A model generated the notes under the pieces. That model searched no databases, had not been told where the DNA came from, and saw nothing but the letters and a program-made list of their open reading frames with translations. Positions 4,564 to 25,875 of a stretch of 27,665 nucleotides of DNA are shown here, one piece after another. Position numbers and translations under genes: made by a program. The stretch is from positions 1-27,665 of IMG/VR virus record IMGVR_UViG_3300042922_000989. One strand, given 5' to 3'. Each line of letters starts with the position of its first letter. Position 1 is the first letter of the stretch. The DNA is from a virus.

Positions 4564-5304
4564 TCATTTTAAAGCACCATTAGCATCTACAGCATATCCA
4601 TCTTGTGTAGTGGTATTCACATACAAAGCTCCGTTAGCATCAAAGCAATACCATATACCTCCAATTTTAAGCCATTCTGACTTGGCCATAATACAATTAT
4701 CTTTTAAGTAATACCATAAGCCATTATATTGTAACCATGTAGATTGTAGTGCATATCCTTCTTTATTAAAATAATACCATTGGTTATCTATTAACTGCCA
4801 ACCATCAGTATAATATTTATAATTGGCTACATCAGTACAATACCACCATCCTGTTGCATCTTGATTCCAACCATATACGTAAACACCATGAGAATATTCT
4901 CTCCATTGCTTAAGACCTAAAGTATATTTATAATCACCACGTTTAATCATGTGATAATCAAAGTTTTCAATGGAGAATTTATCATTAATATACGTCTGAC
5001 TATTTGAATTGATTATTACTATTCTAATAGGCTCTACCCTATCTATTGCATTATTAAAAAGATCTATAAAGTCAGTAGCTAAATATACACTTCTTGCAAA
5101 ATTATATTTTTTCATAGGCAGCCAGCTATCAAATGATAAAGTTGTTAATCCTGCCTTTTCTATAAAATTAAATGTACCATTATCATATGTTTCAAATTCC
5201 TCATTACTTATCTTTCTAGATATAGGAGGCAATTCTTCCGGAATAATTGGTAATTGTAAAACTTTTGTTTTATTATAGTCTGCAATATAGATATCATATT
5301 TCAT
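4564..5304 (-). CDS. XkdP-like tail protein with C-terminal cell-wall-binding repeats
   Basis: Residues 1 to about 130 have the pattern of the XkdP/YqbP N-terminal domain (LQLPIIPEELPPISRK near the start, YTLGLKQWREY at the end), which lies between tape measure and XkdQ in PBSX-like tails. In the usual member a LysM domain follows. Here residues about 140-246 instead carry four to five tandem aromatic repeats such as GWWYCTDV, GWQLIDNQWYYFNKEGY, GLWYYLKDN and GIWYCFDANGALYVN, the pattern of choline-binding/CW_binding_1 repeats of clostridial and streptococcal surface proteins and lysins. This suggests the tail tip binds wall polymer. Start ATG has a perfect GGAGG site. Confidence 0.85.
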   Translation of the reverse strand: MKYDIYIADYNKTKVLQLPIIPEELPPISRKISNEEFETYDNGTFNFIEKAGLTTLSFDSWLPMKKYNFARSVYLATDFIDLFNNAIDRVEPIRIVIINSNSQTYINDKFSIENFDYHMIKRGDYKYTLGLKQWREYSHGVYVYGWNQDATGWWYCTDVANYKYYTDGWQLIDNQWYYFNKEGYALQSTWLQYNGLWYYLKDNCIMAKSEWLKIGGIWYCFDANGALYVNTTTQDGYAVDANGALK

Positions 5305-19611: not shown

Positions 19612-20253
19612 TTACAATTTTCTACCAGCAATTTTAGCAGCAGATTCTTTAACTTCATCATCTATCCCTAAATATCTTTTCGTTACCTCTACACTTTTAT
19701 GGCCTAAAGCAATTCTTACATAATTGAGATCCTTTGTTTCTTCATAAAGCCTCCTAGCATAAGTTTTTCTTAAACTATGTCCGGTAATATTTTTTAAATT
19801 AATCTCTTTATCATCAGCAACTTTTTTTAATATATCTGAATAAGCCTTGGCTGATATATATTTGCTACCATCAAACTTTTGTGATGGGAAGGCATATTCG
19901 GACTTCTTTTTACCTTTAATATATTTTTTTAATATTACCTCAAGCTGATGTACAATATCATGCTGTCTTTTCTCAGTCATTTTCTTTAAAGATTTAGGAT
20001 ATTTTCTCATATGAGTTTTCCAAGCATTAAATTGTTTTTTCTCCTGTATTTCGAAATATCCATTCTTTAATGCTTCTTGAATATCGGATATAGTCAGATC
20101 TATTACATCTTGAATTCTATATCCGGTTGCAATATCTAATAAAAACAAAGTAATATTTCTTTCAGCCCACTCTCCACTTAATTCATCTAAACGATATTTA
20201 AACCGTTCATAATAAGTCTCTGGAATTGGCTTCGAAGGCTTCTTTTTACTCAC
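19612..20253 (-). CDS. Small tyrosine recombinase/integrase
   Basis: A 213-aa catalytic-domain-only tyrosine recombinase. Active-site residues are visible: R46 (ATGYRIQD), H159-x-x-R162 (GHSLRKTYA), H185 (ALGHKS) and nucleophile Y194 (TKRYLG). It lacks the separate N-terminal core-binding and arm-binding domains of classical phage integrases (normally 350-400 aa), which is typical for plasmid- and phage-borne recombinases that resolve multimers or invert DNA. Together with parAB it fits phage-plasmid maintenance, but integration cannot be ruled out. Its start overlaps the 69-aa gene by 4 bp. Confidence 0.9.
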   Translation of the reverse strand: MSKKKPSKPIPETYYERFKYRLDELSGEWAERNITLFLLDIATGYRIQDVIDLTISDIQEALKNGYFEIQEKKQFNAWKTHMRKYPKSLKKMTEKRQHDIVHQLEVILKKYIKGKKKSEYAFPSQKFDGSKYISAKAYSDILKKVADDKEINLKNITGHSLRKTYARRLYEETKDLNYVRIALGHKSVEVTKRYLGIDDEVKESAAKIAGRKL

Positions 20254-20783: not shown

Positions 20784-20966
20784 ATGAAACCAAAAGAATT
20801 ACTTAAGCAACTAAATAAAGATGGCTGGGTAGTAAAACATCAAGTTGGCTCACACATTCAACTAGTTCATCCAAGCAAAGCTGGAAAGGTCATAGTTCCA
20901 TATCATAATAAAGACCTTGATATTAAAACAGTAAATAGTATTCTCAAGCAAGCAGGGCTTAAATAA
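20784..20966 (+). CDS. hicA: HicA toxin (mRNA interferase)
   Basis: A 60-aa protein with the compact double-stranded-RNA-binding-like HicA fold: KPKELLKQLNKDGW, then VVKHQVGSHIQLVHP with the catalytic histidine H24 in GSH, and a VIVPYHN strand followed by the terminal helix VNSILKQAGL. HicA cleaves mRNA and inhibits translation unless bound by HicB. AAGGAGG precedes the ATG with good spacing. It is transcribed opposite to the phage operons, from its own promoter. Confidence 0.95.
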   Translation: MKPKELLKQLNKDGWVVKHQVGSHIQLVHPSKAGKVIVPYHNKDLDIKTVNSILKQAGLK

Positions 20967-20984
20967 ATGCCATGTCGAATGAGA

Positions 20985-21020
20985 ATTAATAATATAATTA
21001 ATAATATAATTAATAATATA
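20985..21020 (+). repeat. Three tandem copies of ATTAATAATATA between hicA and hicB
   Basis: Three exact 12-bp copies in a row. They create TATAAT elements and lie just before the hicB ribosome site, so they may give hicB its own promoter or binding sites. hicA and hicB are usually separated by only a few bases; here the gap is 75 bp. Confidence 0.85.
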
Positions 21021-21041
21021 CTATAAAAGGAGGATTGAAAA

Positions 21042-21452
21042 TTGGATAAATATATTTTCCCAGCTATATTTGAGCCTGGCGAAGAAAAAGGTTATTGTGT
21101 AACTTTCCCTGATCTACCAGGATGTATAACTGAAGGTGATACACTTGAAGAAGCATATAGTATGGCAAAGGAAGCTTTAGAACTCCATATATACGGCATG
21201 GAAGAAGATGGAGACACTATTCCTTCACCAACTGAGCCAAGTAAAATAACAATTAATAAAAATTCATTTATAACATTAATTGAGGCATGGATGCCATTAA
21301 TCAGAAATGAACTAGCTAATAAAGCTGTTAAGAAAACCCTTACTATTCCAAAGTGGCTTAATGATGCAGCAGAAGAAAAAAAGATTAACTTTTCTCAAGT
21401 GCTTCAATCAGCCTTAAAGGACTATTTAGGCTTAAAAGACAATAATGTTTAA
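21042..21452 (+). CDS. hicB: HicB antitoxin
   Basis: A 136-aa antitoxin. The N-terminal partial RNase H-like domain has YIFPAIFEPGEEKGYCVTFP and DLPGCITEGDTLEEA, both family signatures; the C-terminal segment (about 95-130; TLTIPKWLNDAAEEKKINFS) is a ribbon-helix-helix DNA-binding domain. It neutralises HicA and represses the promoter. The start is TTG at 21042, 7 nt after AAAGGAGGA. Confidence 0.94.
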   Translation: MDKYIFPAIFEPGEEKGYCVTFPDLPGCITEGDTLEEAYSMAKEALELHIYGMEEDGDTIPSPTEPSKITINKNSFITLIEAWMPLIRNELANKAVKKTLTIPKWLNDAAEEKKINFSQVLQSALKDYLGLKDNNV

Positions 21453-21478
21453 AAGAGCCTCAAAGGGCTCTTTTAAAC
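21447..21478. terminator. Bidirectional terminator between hicB and the RexB-like gene
   Basis: A perfect 13-bp stem GTTTAAAAGAGCC / GGCTCTTTTAAAC with a 6-nt loop, with T-rich arms for both directions. It overlaps the hicB stop and lies 7 bp after the stop of the convergent membrane protein gene, so it serves both operons. Confidence 0.82.
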
Positions 21479-21485
21479 TTAAACT

Positions 21486-21992
21486 TCATTTTCCTTTATC
21501 AAAATATAATTTATCTATTTTTGGCTCAACTCGCTTACTTTTTATAGCCGTATCTTCTTGAAATACTCTATTTAGTAATTTTAACATAATATATATTATT
21601 CTTATAGTTGTTAATATTAAGTAACAAAATAAAAACATCCATATACTCGAAAAAAGAACATAATATTCTTTTAGTATTTTCCAGTCAAAAATTACTGCAA
21701 GAATAACGGAATAAATAATTATTATTAACCCAGAAGCAACTGGGAATGCAAAATAGCTTTTTAATAAATTATCAGCTTTATAATCCCTAATTGTCTTCAT
21801 GATTTTTCTATTTGTTAATGTTAAAAGTATTGAGACCATAGTTATCAGAAATCCAATTATTATTGAACTAAAACTAATCGTATTTGAGTAAACAAATTTG
21901 TAGTCTACAAAATTTGAAAAATTTAATTTAAGAATATAGAAAAATACAGACACTAAAATTGAAAAAAAAAGTGGACCTATTCTTTCAATCAC
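21486..21992 (-). CDS. Four-TM membrane protein, RexB-like candidate
   Basis: A 168-aa protein with four hydrophobic helices (about 7-24, 38-59, 80-103, 110-137) and a charged C-terminal tail of ~30 residues. After TM2 comes a basic segment, TLTNRKIMKTIRDYK, before TM3. Lambda RexB (144 aa, four TM) has, as I recall it, a similar R-rich segment ending in IREYG at this point. It lies 9 bp downstream of a soluble partner gene, the rexA-rexB order. It might form a channel that depolarises infected cells. GTG start at 21992 with AAGGTGAT. Homology is not proven; it could be an unrelated defence or superinfection-exclusion membrane protein. Confidence 0.55.
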   Translation of the reverse strand: MIERIGPLFFSILVSVFFYILKLNFSNFVDYKFVYSNTISFSSIIIGFLITMVSILLTLTNRKIMKTIRDYKADNLLKSYFAFPVASGLIIIIYSVILAVIFDWKILKEYYVLFSSIWMFLFCYLILTTIRIIYIMLKLLNRVFQEDTAIKSKRVEPKIDKLYFDKGK

Positions 21993-22001
21993 ATTATCAC
22001 C

Positions 22002-23027
22002 TTATTCTATTTTCAATTTTTTTGTTAAGCCACTCCAATGTTTATTATATGAATCTAATATATTTAATATTACATTCCCATGAGAAATTGGATTTGTCTT
22101 TGAATATTCCAGAACAAATTTATCTTTTAGTCTTTGTTCAATCAAATCTATTACTTCAACGTTTGTATCAATCTCCTCACTTGAACGTAACCTGAGTTTG
22201 TTAACATTCGGATCTTTGTTAAGTTCCAATACAGTATCAACTGAAAGATTTTGAGATAAAGTCTTACCCCTTTTAGAGTTGCTCATACTCATTGTTAATG
22301 TTGCTGTTGATGTATCAAAGTCATTAAATGCATCTAGAATATTATTTAATTGTTTAATGCCTGTTTTTATTTTTCTTTCTTTATTTAGCTCAGAAAACCC
22401 AATTTCAATTTTTCTAAATATATTACTTTTTTTTATTTTTGATAAATCAATATCTAAATCAATAACATCTAATGCAATATTATTATTATCAGAAACTTTC
22501 CGTAAAAAATCTAAAATTCCGGATGGCGTTATACCATCAACATTTCTTTGCAAAACAAGGACACATAACTTATTATCATATATTCCTGATATAGTTTCAG
22601 CTATTCCTTGATTATCCTTTAAATATTTAGACAACAACTCAGGATCATACTCGCCTTCATCATTTGCTATTCCTGGCAATAAATCCTTTCTTATTCTAAC
22701 AAATTGTATTTCCCATAAATCTTTACAATTTACTATATTATCATGTTTTATTTTTTCTTCAATTGGTCGTACAATTTGTAGTCTTGCTATATCATCATGA
22801 TAATCCCAAGTTCTTTCTTTAACATTCGTCTTTTGTGCCAATTCAAAAATCGGCTTTAAACCATATAAATTATTAGCTATTAACTCTCCATCCTCATAAA
22901 TTTTCTCTCTACTTTGAAAATAATCAATAGAGATATTTTTTTTCTTACTTTTTTCTTTTTTCTTTTTTGGCTTTTTTTCAGCAATATCATTACTTTCAAC
23001 ATTAATTTTTCTTATTTTTTTAGCCAC
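22002..23027 (-). CDS. Soluble sensor-like protein, RexA-like / DUF6731-like candidate
   Basis: 341 aa from GTG at 23027, which has AAGGGGAT upstream; a TTG at 23069 would add 14 residues but its site is too close. Residues 1-31 are a Lys-rich tail. The core shows WEIQFVRIRKDLLPGI (105-120), IYDNKLCVLVLQRNVDGI (149-166), SGILDFL and FRKIEIGF (204-211), a pattern that I associate with DUF6731/DUF4747-like proteins and which, by eye, parallels the central part of lambda RexA (strand, FLF-type strand, D-L-T-DFL helix, then K-V/I-E strand). RexA senses phage and triggers RexB. Function is inference; there is no catalytic motif. Confidence 0.5.
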   Translation of the reverse strand: MAKKIRKINVESNDIAEKKPKKKKEKSKKKNISIDYFQSREKIYEDGELIANNLYGLKPIFELAQKTNVKERTWDYHDDIARLQIVRPIEEKIKHDNIVNCKDLWEIQFVRIRKDLLPGIANDEGEYDPELLSKYLKDNQGIAETISGIYDNKLCVLVLQRNVDGITPSGILDFLRKVSDNNNIALDVIDLDIDLSKIKKSNIFRKIEIGFSELNKERKIKTGIKQLNNILDAFNDFDTSTATLTMSMSNSKRGKTLSQNLSVDTVLELNKDPNVNKLRLRSSEEIDTNVEVIDLIEQRLKDKFVLEYSKTNPISHGNVILNILDSYNKHWSGLTKKLKIE

Positions 23028-23092
23028 AATATCATCCCCTTCTTTATTTTTTTCTACAGAAAGGAGCAATATCCTTTAACTTTCGTTCGACT

Positions 23093-23127
23093 ATTTCTGA
23101 TATAAAATAACATTTTGCATCAGAAAT
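23093..23127. promoter_or_regulatory. 35-bp imperfect palindrome upstream of the RexA-like gene
   Basis: Arms ATTTCTGAT (23093-23101) and ATCAGAAAT (23119-23127) match perfectly; inside, AAAAT and ATTTT pair after a 2-base mismatch, leaving AAC at the centre. No T run follows on the minus strand, so it is more likely an operator for the rexAB-like operon than a terminator of the gene at 23133. Confidence 0.5.
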
Positions 23128-23132
23128 TATTT

Positions 23133-23531
23133 TTATTCAATATATCCCAATGCCCTGGCAAAACACTCTAGAGCTCTATCTCTTAGCAAATAATAATTAT
23201 ATTTATTTAAATTTAACTGTCTCAAAACATCTTTCCTGCTGTAATCTCTAAAATATTTAAGTTCTATAATCTCTTTCATTCTACCATGGAGCCTATCATA
23301 TACTTTTTCAATTATAAATACTTTTTTCTCTATGTCATTTTCTAATTCTGCCATGCTTTCAACTATACTTCCAAAACTATAGGCGCATCCACCTATAGGA
23401 ATTTTTCTTGAAGGTACCCCTAGTCCATCTGCTTCAAGTTTAATAATCCAATCTGGATATCTTTTTAAATCGCTTTCAACTTTTTTAATAATCTCTTCTG
23501 TTAAAATCCTATCCTCTGATTTCTGTTCCAT
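23133..23531 (-). CDS. RinA/ArpU-like late transcription regulator
   Basis: A 132-aa protein with the size and layout of the RinA/ArpU family: a helical N-terminal part with LTEEIIKKVESDLKRYPDWI, a middle helix, and a C-terminal sigma-region-4-like HTH (MKEIIELKYFRDYSRKDVLRQ then YYLLRDRALECFARAL). Such proteins activate phage late promoters. It sits between the early block and the accessory cassette, as late regulators often do. A terminator ends 20 bp before its start, so expression probably depends on readthrough. Good GAGGAGG site. Confidence 0.75.
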   Translation of the reverse strand: MEQKSEDRILTEEIIKKVESDLKRYPDWIIKLEADGLGVPSRKIPIGGCAYSFGSIVESMAELENDIEKKVFIIEKVYDRLHGRMKEIIELKYFRDYSRKDVLRQLNLNKYNYYLLRDRALECFARALGYIE

Positions 23532-24053: not shown

Positions 24054-24078
24054 AAAGGTGTTCACAGTGAACACCTTT
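24054..24078. other. parS-like palindrome beside parB
   Basis: Perfect 12-bp arms AAAGGTGTTCAC and GTGAACACCTTT around a single A. The core TGTTCACAGTGAACA resembles the bacterial Spo0J parS consensus (TGTTNCACGTGNAACA). It touches the last base of the parB stop. No T run follows on the minus strand (it continues TTTGGTAAGAGG), which argues against a plain terminator. The likely role is ParB binding for partition. Confidence 0.65.
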
Positions 24079-25115
24079 TATAAACTCTCATTAATAACTT
24101 TTATAGTACCCTTCATTATAGAATCAATTAGTTGTTTGTTTTCTTTTGAAATTGCTGTATTTTTTTCTTTATTAACAATTTTAATTAATACATTGGATGA
24201 AGCTGCTCTGAAATTTTTTAATAAAATCAATAATTCAGTATTATATTTTATTTCCTGTAAATTTGGATTCTTATTAATGGCTTGGTCAACTTTATTTGGA
24301 TTTTTTTGTTTTTCCTCAAGTTCCTTAACTTCTCTGTTAAAATCTTCTCTAAGCTTATATATTTTTTTCTTCTCTTCTTCTAGTTTTAATGTTTCTTTTT
24401 CCTTTTCCTTTTGAAAAATATTTAGCTGCTGTTTATAAGTATCCTTGATTTGCTGAATTTCTTCTCTTGTTAAATCCATATTAGTTTTTAGTATTTCAAG
24501 CATAGCTTTTTGTGCATCTGTATCCATGGCTGCTATAATATCTGCTTTAGACATACTAATTTTATTCTTATCTAAAAGCTCCTTAATTTCTGGTATCAAT
24601 TCTTTATTTATTTTTTGGTATCTACCAACTTGCACTCCTGAAAGTCCTAAGTCTTTACCAATTAAATCTCTTGTTTTGCCATCCAGCTTTTCACCAGTTT
24701 GTCTTTTGTATTTATATAGCTCTTCTAGTTTTTCTATTTGCTTCATTTTTTCAGCATGGGTTAACTCCCTGGTTTTTGCATTAGCCTGTATTAATAATAT
24801 TTCACTGTCAACATCATTTAAGTCTCTAACCTGGCATGGTACCTTTTTAAAGCCAAGCTTTTTTAAGGCATGATATCTTCTCTCTCCAGATATTATTTCG
24901 AATGTTCCATCATTCCTCGACCTAACTAACAAATTATGATAAAGACCATTTTCTTTAATATCTCCAGCTAGTTCATCTATATCTCTTATGCCATATATAT
25001 TTTTGGTACTTGGAATTAGCTTGTCTATATCAATGTTTTGGAGTTTAAAATCATCTTTTGCCTCAAGTGTATTTAGTTTATCCTGGAGATTAAGCGAGAG
25101 ATTTTGTTTCAACAT
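24078..25115 (-). CDS. parB: ParB-family partition protein
   Basis: A 345-aa ParB/Spo0J-type protein. The N-terminal ParB/sulfiredoxin-like nuclease-fold domain has IDIDKLIPSTKNI, NGLYHNLLVR and the CTP/DNA-binding GERRYHALKK (77-86). A central HTH (DLIGKDLGLSGVQVGRYQKI, about 147-168) should read parS. A long charged coiled coil spans about 215-275, and the C-terminus would dimerise. It overlaps parA by 26 bp, which couples their translation. The extended coiled coil makes it longer than typical Spo0J (about 280 aa). ParB loads on parS and is moved by ParA. Confidence 0.95.
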   Translation of the reverse strand: MLKQNLSLNLQDKLNTLEAKDDFKLQNIDIDKLIPSTKNIYGIRDIDELAGDIKENGLYHNLLVRSRNDGTFEIISGERRYHALKKLGFKKVPCQVRDLNDVDSEILLIQANAKTRELTHAEKMKQIEKLEELYKYKRQTGEKLDGKTRDLIGKDLGLSGVQVGRYQKINKELIPEIKELLDKNKISMSKADIIAAMDTDAQKAMLEILKTNMDLTREEIQQIKDTYKQQLNIFQKEKEKETLKLEEEKKKIYKLREDFNREVKELEEKQKNPNKVDQAINKNPNLQEIKYNTELLILLKNFRAASSNVLIKIVNKEKNTAISKENKQLIDSIMKGTIKVINESL

Positions 25116-25875
25116 GTTCTATAACCTCCTGTGATAAAACTTTATAATCCTTACTGCTTGCAGCATTCTTGGCAAAAGTTATAACTGGCTTTTGTTCAAA
25201 TGTTGATTGAACTAACTTAACATTTTCTCTAATAGTGGTTTTTAACAGTTTGTCCTTAAGTATTTCTTTAAGGTCCTTTTTAATTTCTCTATTTACTGCT
25301 GTCCTTTTATCCATGGTTATAAAAGCTCCTAAAAATTCTAATACTGGATTGAATTCATCTTTAATGTCATATATTTTGTCAATTAAGTATCCTAGTCCAT
25401 CAATGGCAAACTGGTCAATTTTTATTGGTACTAAAACATAATCTGAGGCTACAAGAGCATTCGTAGTAAAAATACTTAGGCTTGGAGGACAATCAATTAA
25501 AATATAGTCATAATCTTTTTCAATATTTCTTAATGCTTTGATTAATCTGGTTTCTCTGCTTCTCATAGTGTTATTTATAATTTCATTTTCACATGCAGCC
25601 AGTTTAATATTTCCCGGGATTATATCAACATTTGCTATTCCAGTATTGGCTATAGCACTATTTACATCTAAAGATTTTTCCATAAGTACATCATAAGTTG
25701 ACAGTTTTTGTCCTTTTATATCGTATCTGTTTAAATATTGGGTAGCATTACTTTGAGGATCTATGTCCACAACTAGCACTTTTTTACCCATTTCACTAAA
25801 ACATGCTGCTAAATTTACAGTAGTAACAGTTTTTCCAACTCCACCTTTTATATTTACAATACTAATAATTTTCAC
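25090..25875 (-). CDS. parA: ParA-family partition ATPase
   Basis: A 261-aa Soj-like Walker-type ATPase. Deviant Walker A is KGGVGKT at 10-16, A' is DIDPQ at 37-41, and Walker B is YDYILIDCPPSL near 120-131. There is no N-terminal HTH, as in type Ib or chromosomal Soj proteins, so autoregulation, if any, would be by ParB or another protein. It segregates the plasmid form of the genome. GTG start at 25875 after AGGTGGG. Confidence 0.96.
   Translation of the reverse strand: MKIISIVNIKGGVGKTVTTVNLAACFSEMGKKVLVVDIDPQSNATQYLNRYDIKGQKLSTYDVLMEKSLDVNSAIANTGIANVDIIPGNIKLAACENEIINNTMRSRETRLIKALRNIEKDYDYILIDCPPSLSIFTTNALVASDYVLVPIKIDQFAIDGLGYLIDKIYDIKDEFNPVLEFLGAFITMDKRTAVNREIKKDLKEILKDKLLKTTIRENVKLVQSTFEQKPVITFAKNAASSKDYKVLSQEVIEHVETKSLA

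Follow-up and report, generated by a model that had tools for sequence, protein, structure and literature searches.

Among the oldest known phage exclusion systems is RexAB of phage lambda; the staphylococcal enzyme also called 'RexAB' acts in DNA repair and is unrelated. In lambda, the gene for the sensor RexA (PF15969; structure 8TWQ) is followed at a short spacing by the gene for the four-transmembrane (four-TM) protein RexB (PF15968), and both are cotranscribed with cI. The actinophages Sbash (gp30/gp31; PMC6426596) and CarolAnn (gp44/gp43; PMC6426606) have two genes in the identical order, which encode a soluble protein of 370–372 aa and a four-TM partner of 165–178 aa. The P. putida pair RexABpp (PP_5643-5644; PMC12894663) likewise combines a protein that is RexA-like by structure with a four-TM partner, and its activation damages the membrane. 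So far, the described Rex-like systems number only five (PMC12894663), and the literature that we searched contained none from Bacillota.

We analyzed positions 1 to 27,665 of a 27.7-kb virus record (IMGVR_UViG_3300042922_000989), hereafter the window, in which an earlier note had read two adjacent genes as a RexA/RexB-like exclusion system of a clostridial phage. Gene A (22002..23027, minus strand) encodes a putative RexA-like sensor of 341 aa that starts at GTG 23027. Gene B (21486..21992, minus strand) encodes a putative RexB-like effector of 168 aa with four TM segments and matches phrog_17119 (E 1e-17). The ORF calls place the end of A at 22002 and the start of B at 21992, leaving a gap of 9 bp on the minus strand. 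Thus, the layout described in the note, that is, a soluble 341-aa protein, 9 bp, and a four-TM 168-aa protein, was confirmed by ORFs, hydropathy and AlphaFold2 (AF2), and it is the order of sensor gene and four-TM gene found in lambda.

Both reading frames were intact and each had a ribosome-binding site; that of gene A, GAAGGGG, is a good match and lies just 5′ of GTG 23027. An alternative start for A is TTG 23069, the first start codon of the ORF, which would give a protein of 355 aa. Because the 341-aa form starts at GTG 23027, the coordinate 23069 belongs to the longer ORF, and residues of A are numbered here according to the 341-aa form. Downstream of B, a terminator-like hairpin of 13 pairs (21447..21478, minus strand) is common to B and the convergent hicB gene; among the 27 intact loci described below, 17 had terminator-like sites within 120 bp after B, a count for which no baseline was computed. 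Upstream, a 16-nt inverted repeat (23093..23127) lies between the neighboring regulator gene and A. Within that regulator gene there is a promoter-like site reading into A (TTGAGA-18-TATAAT, 11/12 match; 23196..23225, minus strand). One could speculate from its sequence that this site drives A; promoter-like sites numbered 47 versus 37 expected, which makes the signal weak.

Protein A matched the Pfam family DUF6731 (PF20505) at E 1e-54, with 186.4 bits versus a gathering cut-off of 27. DUF6731 has no assigned function in Pfam, and our literature search found no papers naming it. Direct sequence searches of the PDB returned nothing relevant. Using the window protein together with 11 relatives, we built an AF2 model of A (mean pLDDT 72, pTM 0.72), the confidence of which is middling. 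A structure check of A had been proposed in the note, and it returned lambda RexA 8TWQ as the only significant PDB match (Foldseek 4.6e-7, probability 1.00; the single match below 1e-3). The second Foldseek match was E. coli RdgC (2OWL, 2OWY; 1.7e-3; VIA Z 5.6), which resembles A more weakly than RexA does. RdgC is not known to be paired with a membrane protein. A resemblance to RdgC has been described for lambda RexA too (PMC11077077), and in this respect A and lambda RexA are alike. VIA-align of the A model with RexA gave a Z of 13.4 over 153 residues at 2.9 Å versus 7.7 for the next best entry, a ranking that covers VIA's own entries and does not thereby exclude KwaB or other folds outside that list. 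The Foldseek whole-chain rmsd between A and RexA was 16 Å, that is, the two domains did not superpose as one rigid body. Such a large value is expected if the two domains of A are placed differently from those of RexA, and lambda RexA has been described as hinged (PMC11077077).

We compared DUF6731 by hhalign with lambda-type RexA sequences gathered from phage records and viral contigs. Against four RexA sequences DUF6731 scored 31, and none of 150 column shuffles scored as high. A set of 15 DUF6731 sequences scored 41.9 against a deeper RexA set (P 4.4e-5; 0/100 shuffles), and 27 DUF6731 sequences scored 55.8 against lambda-type RexA (Prob 93, P 3.4e-7, 265 columns; 0/60 shuffles). The match spanned nearly the entire protein, and within it the DFL helix, whose likeness to RexA the note had recognized by eye, was aligned with DFLIGK of RexA. 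Residues R219 and K221 of lambda RexA are required for DNA binding, as judged from mutants (PMC11077077), and many DUF6731 relatives have R-x-[R/K] at this position. In window A, codons 281–283 (22179..22187, minus strand) encode R-S-S and were aligned with R219-A220-K221 of lambda RexA; that is, as judged by this alignment, R281 is retained and the equivalent of K221 is Ser283. Window A is longer than lambda RexA, and its relatives are in Bacillota. That A is a RexA homologue is well supported by the profile comparisons and the predicted fold, and we regard DUF6731 as a separate family inside a RexA-fold superfamily.

The hydropathy of B fits four TM segments. AF2 predicted four long helices and, behind TM2, a short one in the cytoplasm (pLDDT 77), and the loop charges of 27 B proteins fit a layout in which both termini are inside and the cytoplasmic loop is basic, as has also been given for Sbash gp31 (PMC6426596). 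The R70A and D73A mutants of Sbash gp31 no longer defend. In the window protein this loop, placed by the AF2 helices, the loop charges and the alignment with the RexB loop, lies between TM2 and TM3 at residues 61–72, NRKIMKTIRDYK (21777..21812, minus strand). B matched only PHROGs of unknown function. Its model had no significant Foldseek match in the PDB, and its top matches in BFVD were all unnamed phage proteins; a 165-aa Sbash protein, equal in length to gp31, was among the weak BFVD matches (TM 0.50, E 3.9).

We found no solved structure of RexB, and B was compared with RexB by profile. The outcome depended on the depth of the B alignment, and shallow sets were not used alone. With the first set, 18 of 150 shuffles reached or exceeded the real score; with 17 B proteins, none of 100 full shuffles and 6 of 100 local shuffles did so. 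The match to lambda-type RexB was seen only after the alignment was enlarged to 30 B proteins (score 28.1, P 6.8e-4, 72 collinear columns), when neither 80 full nor 80 local shuffles gave a score as high. Because local shuffles keep the hydrophobic pattern, the match exceeds shared membrane composition. The similarity runs collinearly from TM1 through TM2 into the TM2-TM3 loop, whereas TM3-TM4 is unmatched. Since TM3-TM4 is unmatched and the B set had been enlarged beforehand, we counted the support as moderate, and it is with this moderate support that B resembles RexB by profile. The note had pointed to a shared basic segment after TM2, and this stretch of B does sit opposite the basic loop of RexB; the IRDY/IREY likeness that it read there is not conserved. 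We rejected IRDY/IREY as a family motif, for IRD occurred only in window B and in one relative (L002).

Neither the Pfam models for RexA and RexB (PF15969, PF15968) nor those of PADLOC matched the pair at E 10, and NCBIfam gave no match to either protein. The same RexA/RexB HMMs recognized lambda RexA and RexB but missed CarolAnn gp44, a Rex protein by experiment (PMC6426606), and these models are therefore insensitive to the wider Rex group. The RexA/RexB reading of the note was largely right as to fold, profile and pairing, with the amendment that A belongs to the separate family DUF6731. By hhalign, neither A nor B showed detectable profile similarity to actinophage Rex proteins, and no relation was detected between actinophage Rex, represented by three sequences only, and lambda RexA. 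Because actinophage Rex is also unmatched to lambda Rex, its comparison with A and B is uninformative; yet DUF6731 was detected, so by hhalign it is closer to lambda RexA than are these accepted Rex systems. The P. putida pair is gammaproteobacterial, and we liken it to A-B by description, not by sequence. A further link is DUF4747 (PF15931), which has been reported for both lambda RexA and Sbash gp30 (PMC6426596): one DUF6731 relative (L096) matched it at 5e-6, slightly below the cut-off, and in the Pfam search window A itself matched DUF6731 only.

When viral and genome contigs were scanned with single proteins, no relatives were found, and small alignments were required. The 27 intact loci, which form 26 clusters at 70% identity, came from phages AP45 and Javan1, viral contigs, a Niallia plasmid and Bacillota genomes; in Javan1 the B gene is unannotated. 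The neighborhood survey proposed in the note bore out the pairing, because a four-TM gene lay directly after A in all 27, at a spacing of −14 to +56 bp. Among the soluble ORFs of at least 200 aa in the relatives' loci, 26/73 had a four-TM gene behind them and all 26 were A genes, in contrast to 0/47 for the others. Distances among A and B proteins co-diverged (mirror-tree r 0.90 vs a permutation maximum of 0.33). In related loci dN was well below dS in both genes, with dS saturated in several pairs. The family was sporadic, as DUF6731 was found in 15/397 genomes sampled within the order of an Ornithinibacillus genome and in 5/398 sampled across its phylum.

Upstream of A lies a gene for a late-activator-like protein (phrog_248), and the window pair sits between this late-regulator-like gene and the hicAB/integrase genes. 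A small tyrosine recombinase-like gene (19612–20253) is also present. Adjacent ParB-like and ParA genes (24078–25875, minus strand) suggest plasmid-like maintenance; from these genes a phage-plasmid, as the note had proposed, is plausible, and its attribute 'clostridial' was not established. The tail region encodes a protein ending in choline-binding cell-wall repeats (4564–5304, minus strand; PF19127 1e-10). We identified no cI-like repressor in the window or beside the pair, which differs from lambda; Sbash rexAB is likewise unlinked from the repressor (PMC6426596). The window, Javan1 and three other loci (L008, L016, L094) have the pair between regulatory/integrase genes and HNH/terminase genes, whereas in two loci (L005, L033) it follows an endolysin gene. 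The Niallia plasmid copy precedes and adjoins a type I restriction-modification operon. Most of the loci examined were phage or prophage, in which genes for a late regulator, terminase or endolysin lie near the pair. Accessory phage genes and defense genes usually reside at such positions.

The HicA-HicB toxin-antitoxin pair of the window (20784–21452, plus strand; PF07927 2e-21, PF15919 1e-19) is convergent to B. We considered a toxin-antitoxin reading of the locus through hicAB and rejected it, because the hicAB genes converge on the pair, match families of their own, and are separated from B by the terminator-like hairpin. A gene of the YcfA (HicA) family is annotated ~4.4 kb from the AP45 pair.

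Together, these data make it probable that A and B act as a pair in phage exclusion (abortive infection) of the Rex type. Protein A would be a two-domain RexA/RdgC-like protein, presumably a DNA-binding dimer, that senses a feature of another phage's infection, probably via DNA or a protein-DNA complex. Protein B would sit in the inner membrane as a RexB-like protein whose four TM helices leave both termini on the inner side and whose cytoplasmic loop is basic. Once activated, A would open B; permeabilization of the membrane would abolish its potential, and growth would cease before the invading phage could mature. Rex of lambda, Sbash, CarolAnn and P. putida is thought to work by such sensing and permeabilization (PMC11077077, PMC6426596, PMC6426606, PMC12894663), and our functional model rests on these studies. 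From this analogy we infer DNA binding, dimerization, sensing, A-B contact, channel opening, depolarization and phage protection.

Two other functions would fit parts of the data. In lambda, RexA influences the lysogeny switch independently of RexB (PMC11077077), the pair adjoins the endolysin gene in L005 and L033, and in the window it lies between the late-regulator-like gene and packaging genes on the same strand. These points would accord with a role in the phage life cycle, with A as an RdgC/RexA-like DNA-binding modulator of lysis-lysogeny or recombination and B as a holin-like or membrane-tethering partner. However, a place beside an endolysin gene is not the rule, B has a RexB-like four-TM layout, the plasmid copy is beside a restriction-modification operon, and the pair has the sporadic occurrence of an accessory gene in the order sampled; we consider such a role improbable. 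In Kiwa, too, a four-TM protein has a soluble partner that binds DNA. Given this, and the only moderate profile match of B to RexB, the locus could be some other membrane-associated defense pair, Kiwa-like or with a different sensor and effector, that came to the Rex layout by convergence. But the fold and profile of A match RexA specifically, well above the other entries compared, and no model in PADLOC-DB, which presumably includes those for Kiwa KwaA/KwaB, matched A or B at E 10, which leaves this explanation very improbable.

A separate matter is whether the window copy is as active as the Rex-type family to which we assign it. In window A, N139-Q140 stands in place of the D-E found in most relatives, and A143 in place of a G that is likewise kept by most, so that its own activity is less certain than that of the family. 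Judged by its sequence, window A may be specialized, degenerate or weakened. Its Lys-rich N-terminal tail (residues 1–30; 22938..23027, minus strand), which the note had remarked upon as a feature not in RexA, is present as described and is peculiar to this copy; it is missing from the aligned relatives and thus not a family trait. Residues 1–21 had low pLDDT in the AF2 model. The three substitutions, the serine at the K221 equivalent, and the existence of relatives in which A is broken but B is intact (L038, L040, L099) would be consistent with a window copy that is decaying or inactive within an active family. Against this, both frames are intact with their ribosome-binding sites and 9-bp spacing, the protein keeps R161, N162, P168, R205 and Y327, and its AF2 model still has the RexA fold. 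Decay of this copy is therefore unlikely in our judgment.

If A and B are a Rex-type pair, then the classic exclusion system of lambda probably occurs more widely than has been recorded, because Gram-positive bacteria have the same unannotated pair in phages, on a plasmid and in chromosomes. Placing a functionally uncharacterized domain in the RexA fold, together with an always adjacent partner, makes the family testable in Gram-positive hosts that are amenable to genetics, and its 26 diverged natural variants could be used for mapping the residues of sensing and gating. A bolder proposal, which we put forward tentatively, is that DUF6731 and its four-TM partner form a large unrecorded Bacillota branch of Rex immunity, spread over phages, a plasmid and chromosomes, and that a deep superfamily of RexA, DUF4747 and DUF6731 underlies Rex systems generally. 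Under the same proposal, the window copy, with a Lys-rich tail that contacts DNA and a lost acidic pair, might be a specialized variant with a different trigger.

Several loci departed from the intact arrangement. In one genome (G324; loci L037/L040) an ORF that by eye resembles a TnpB transposon protein interrupts A, and B is intact. Gene A is split in L038 and shortened in L099, each with an intact B, and in L018 both genes are broken up. A divergent DUF6731 branch of five loci (L097, L098, L100, L101, L102) has a four-TM partner with a long charged C-terminal tail and a total length of 204–236 aa. Lastly, the archaeon Methanocaldococcus jannaschii, which served as a control genome, gave a sub-threshold PF20505 signal.
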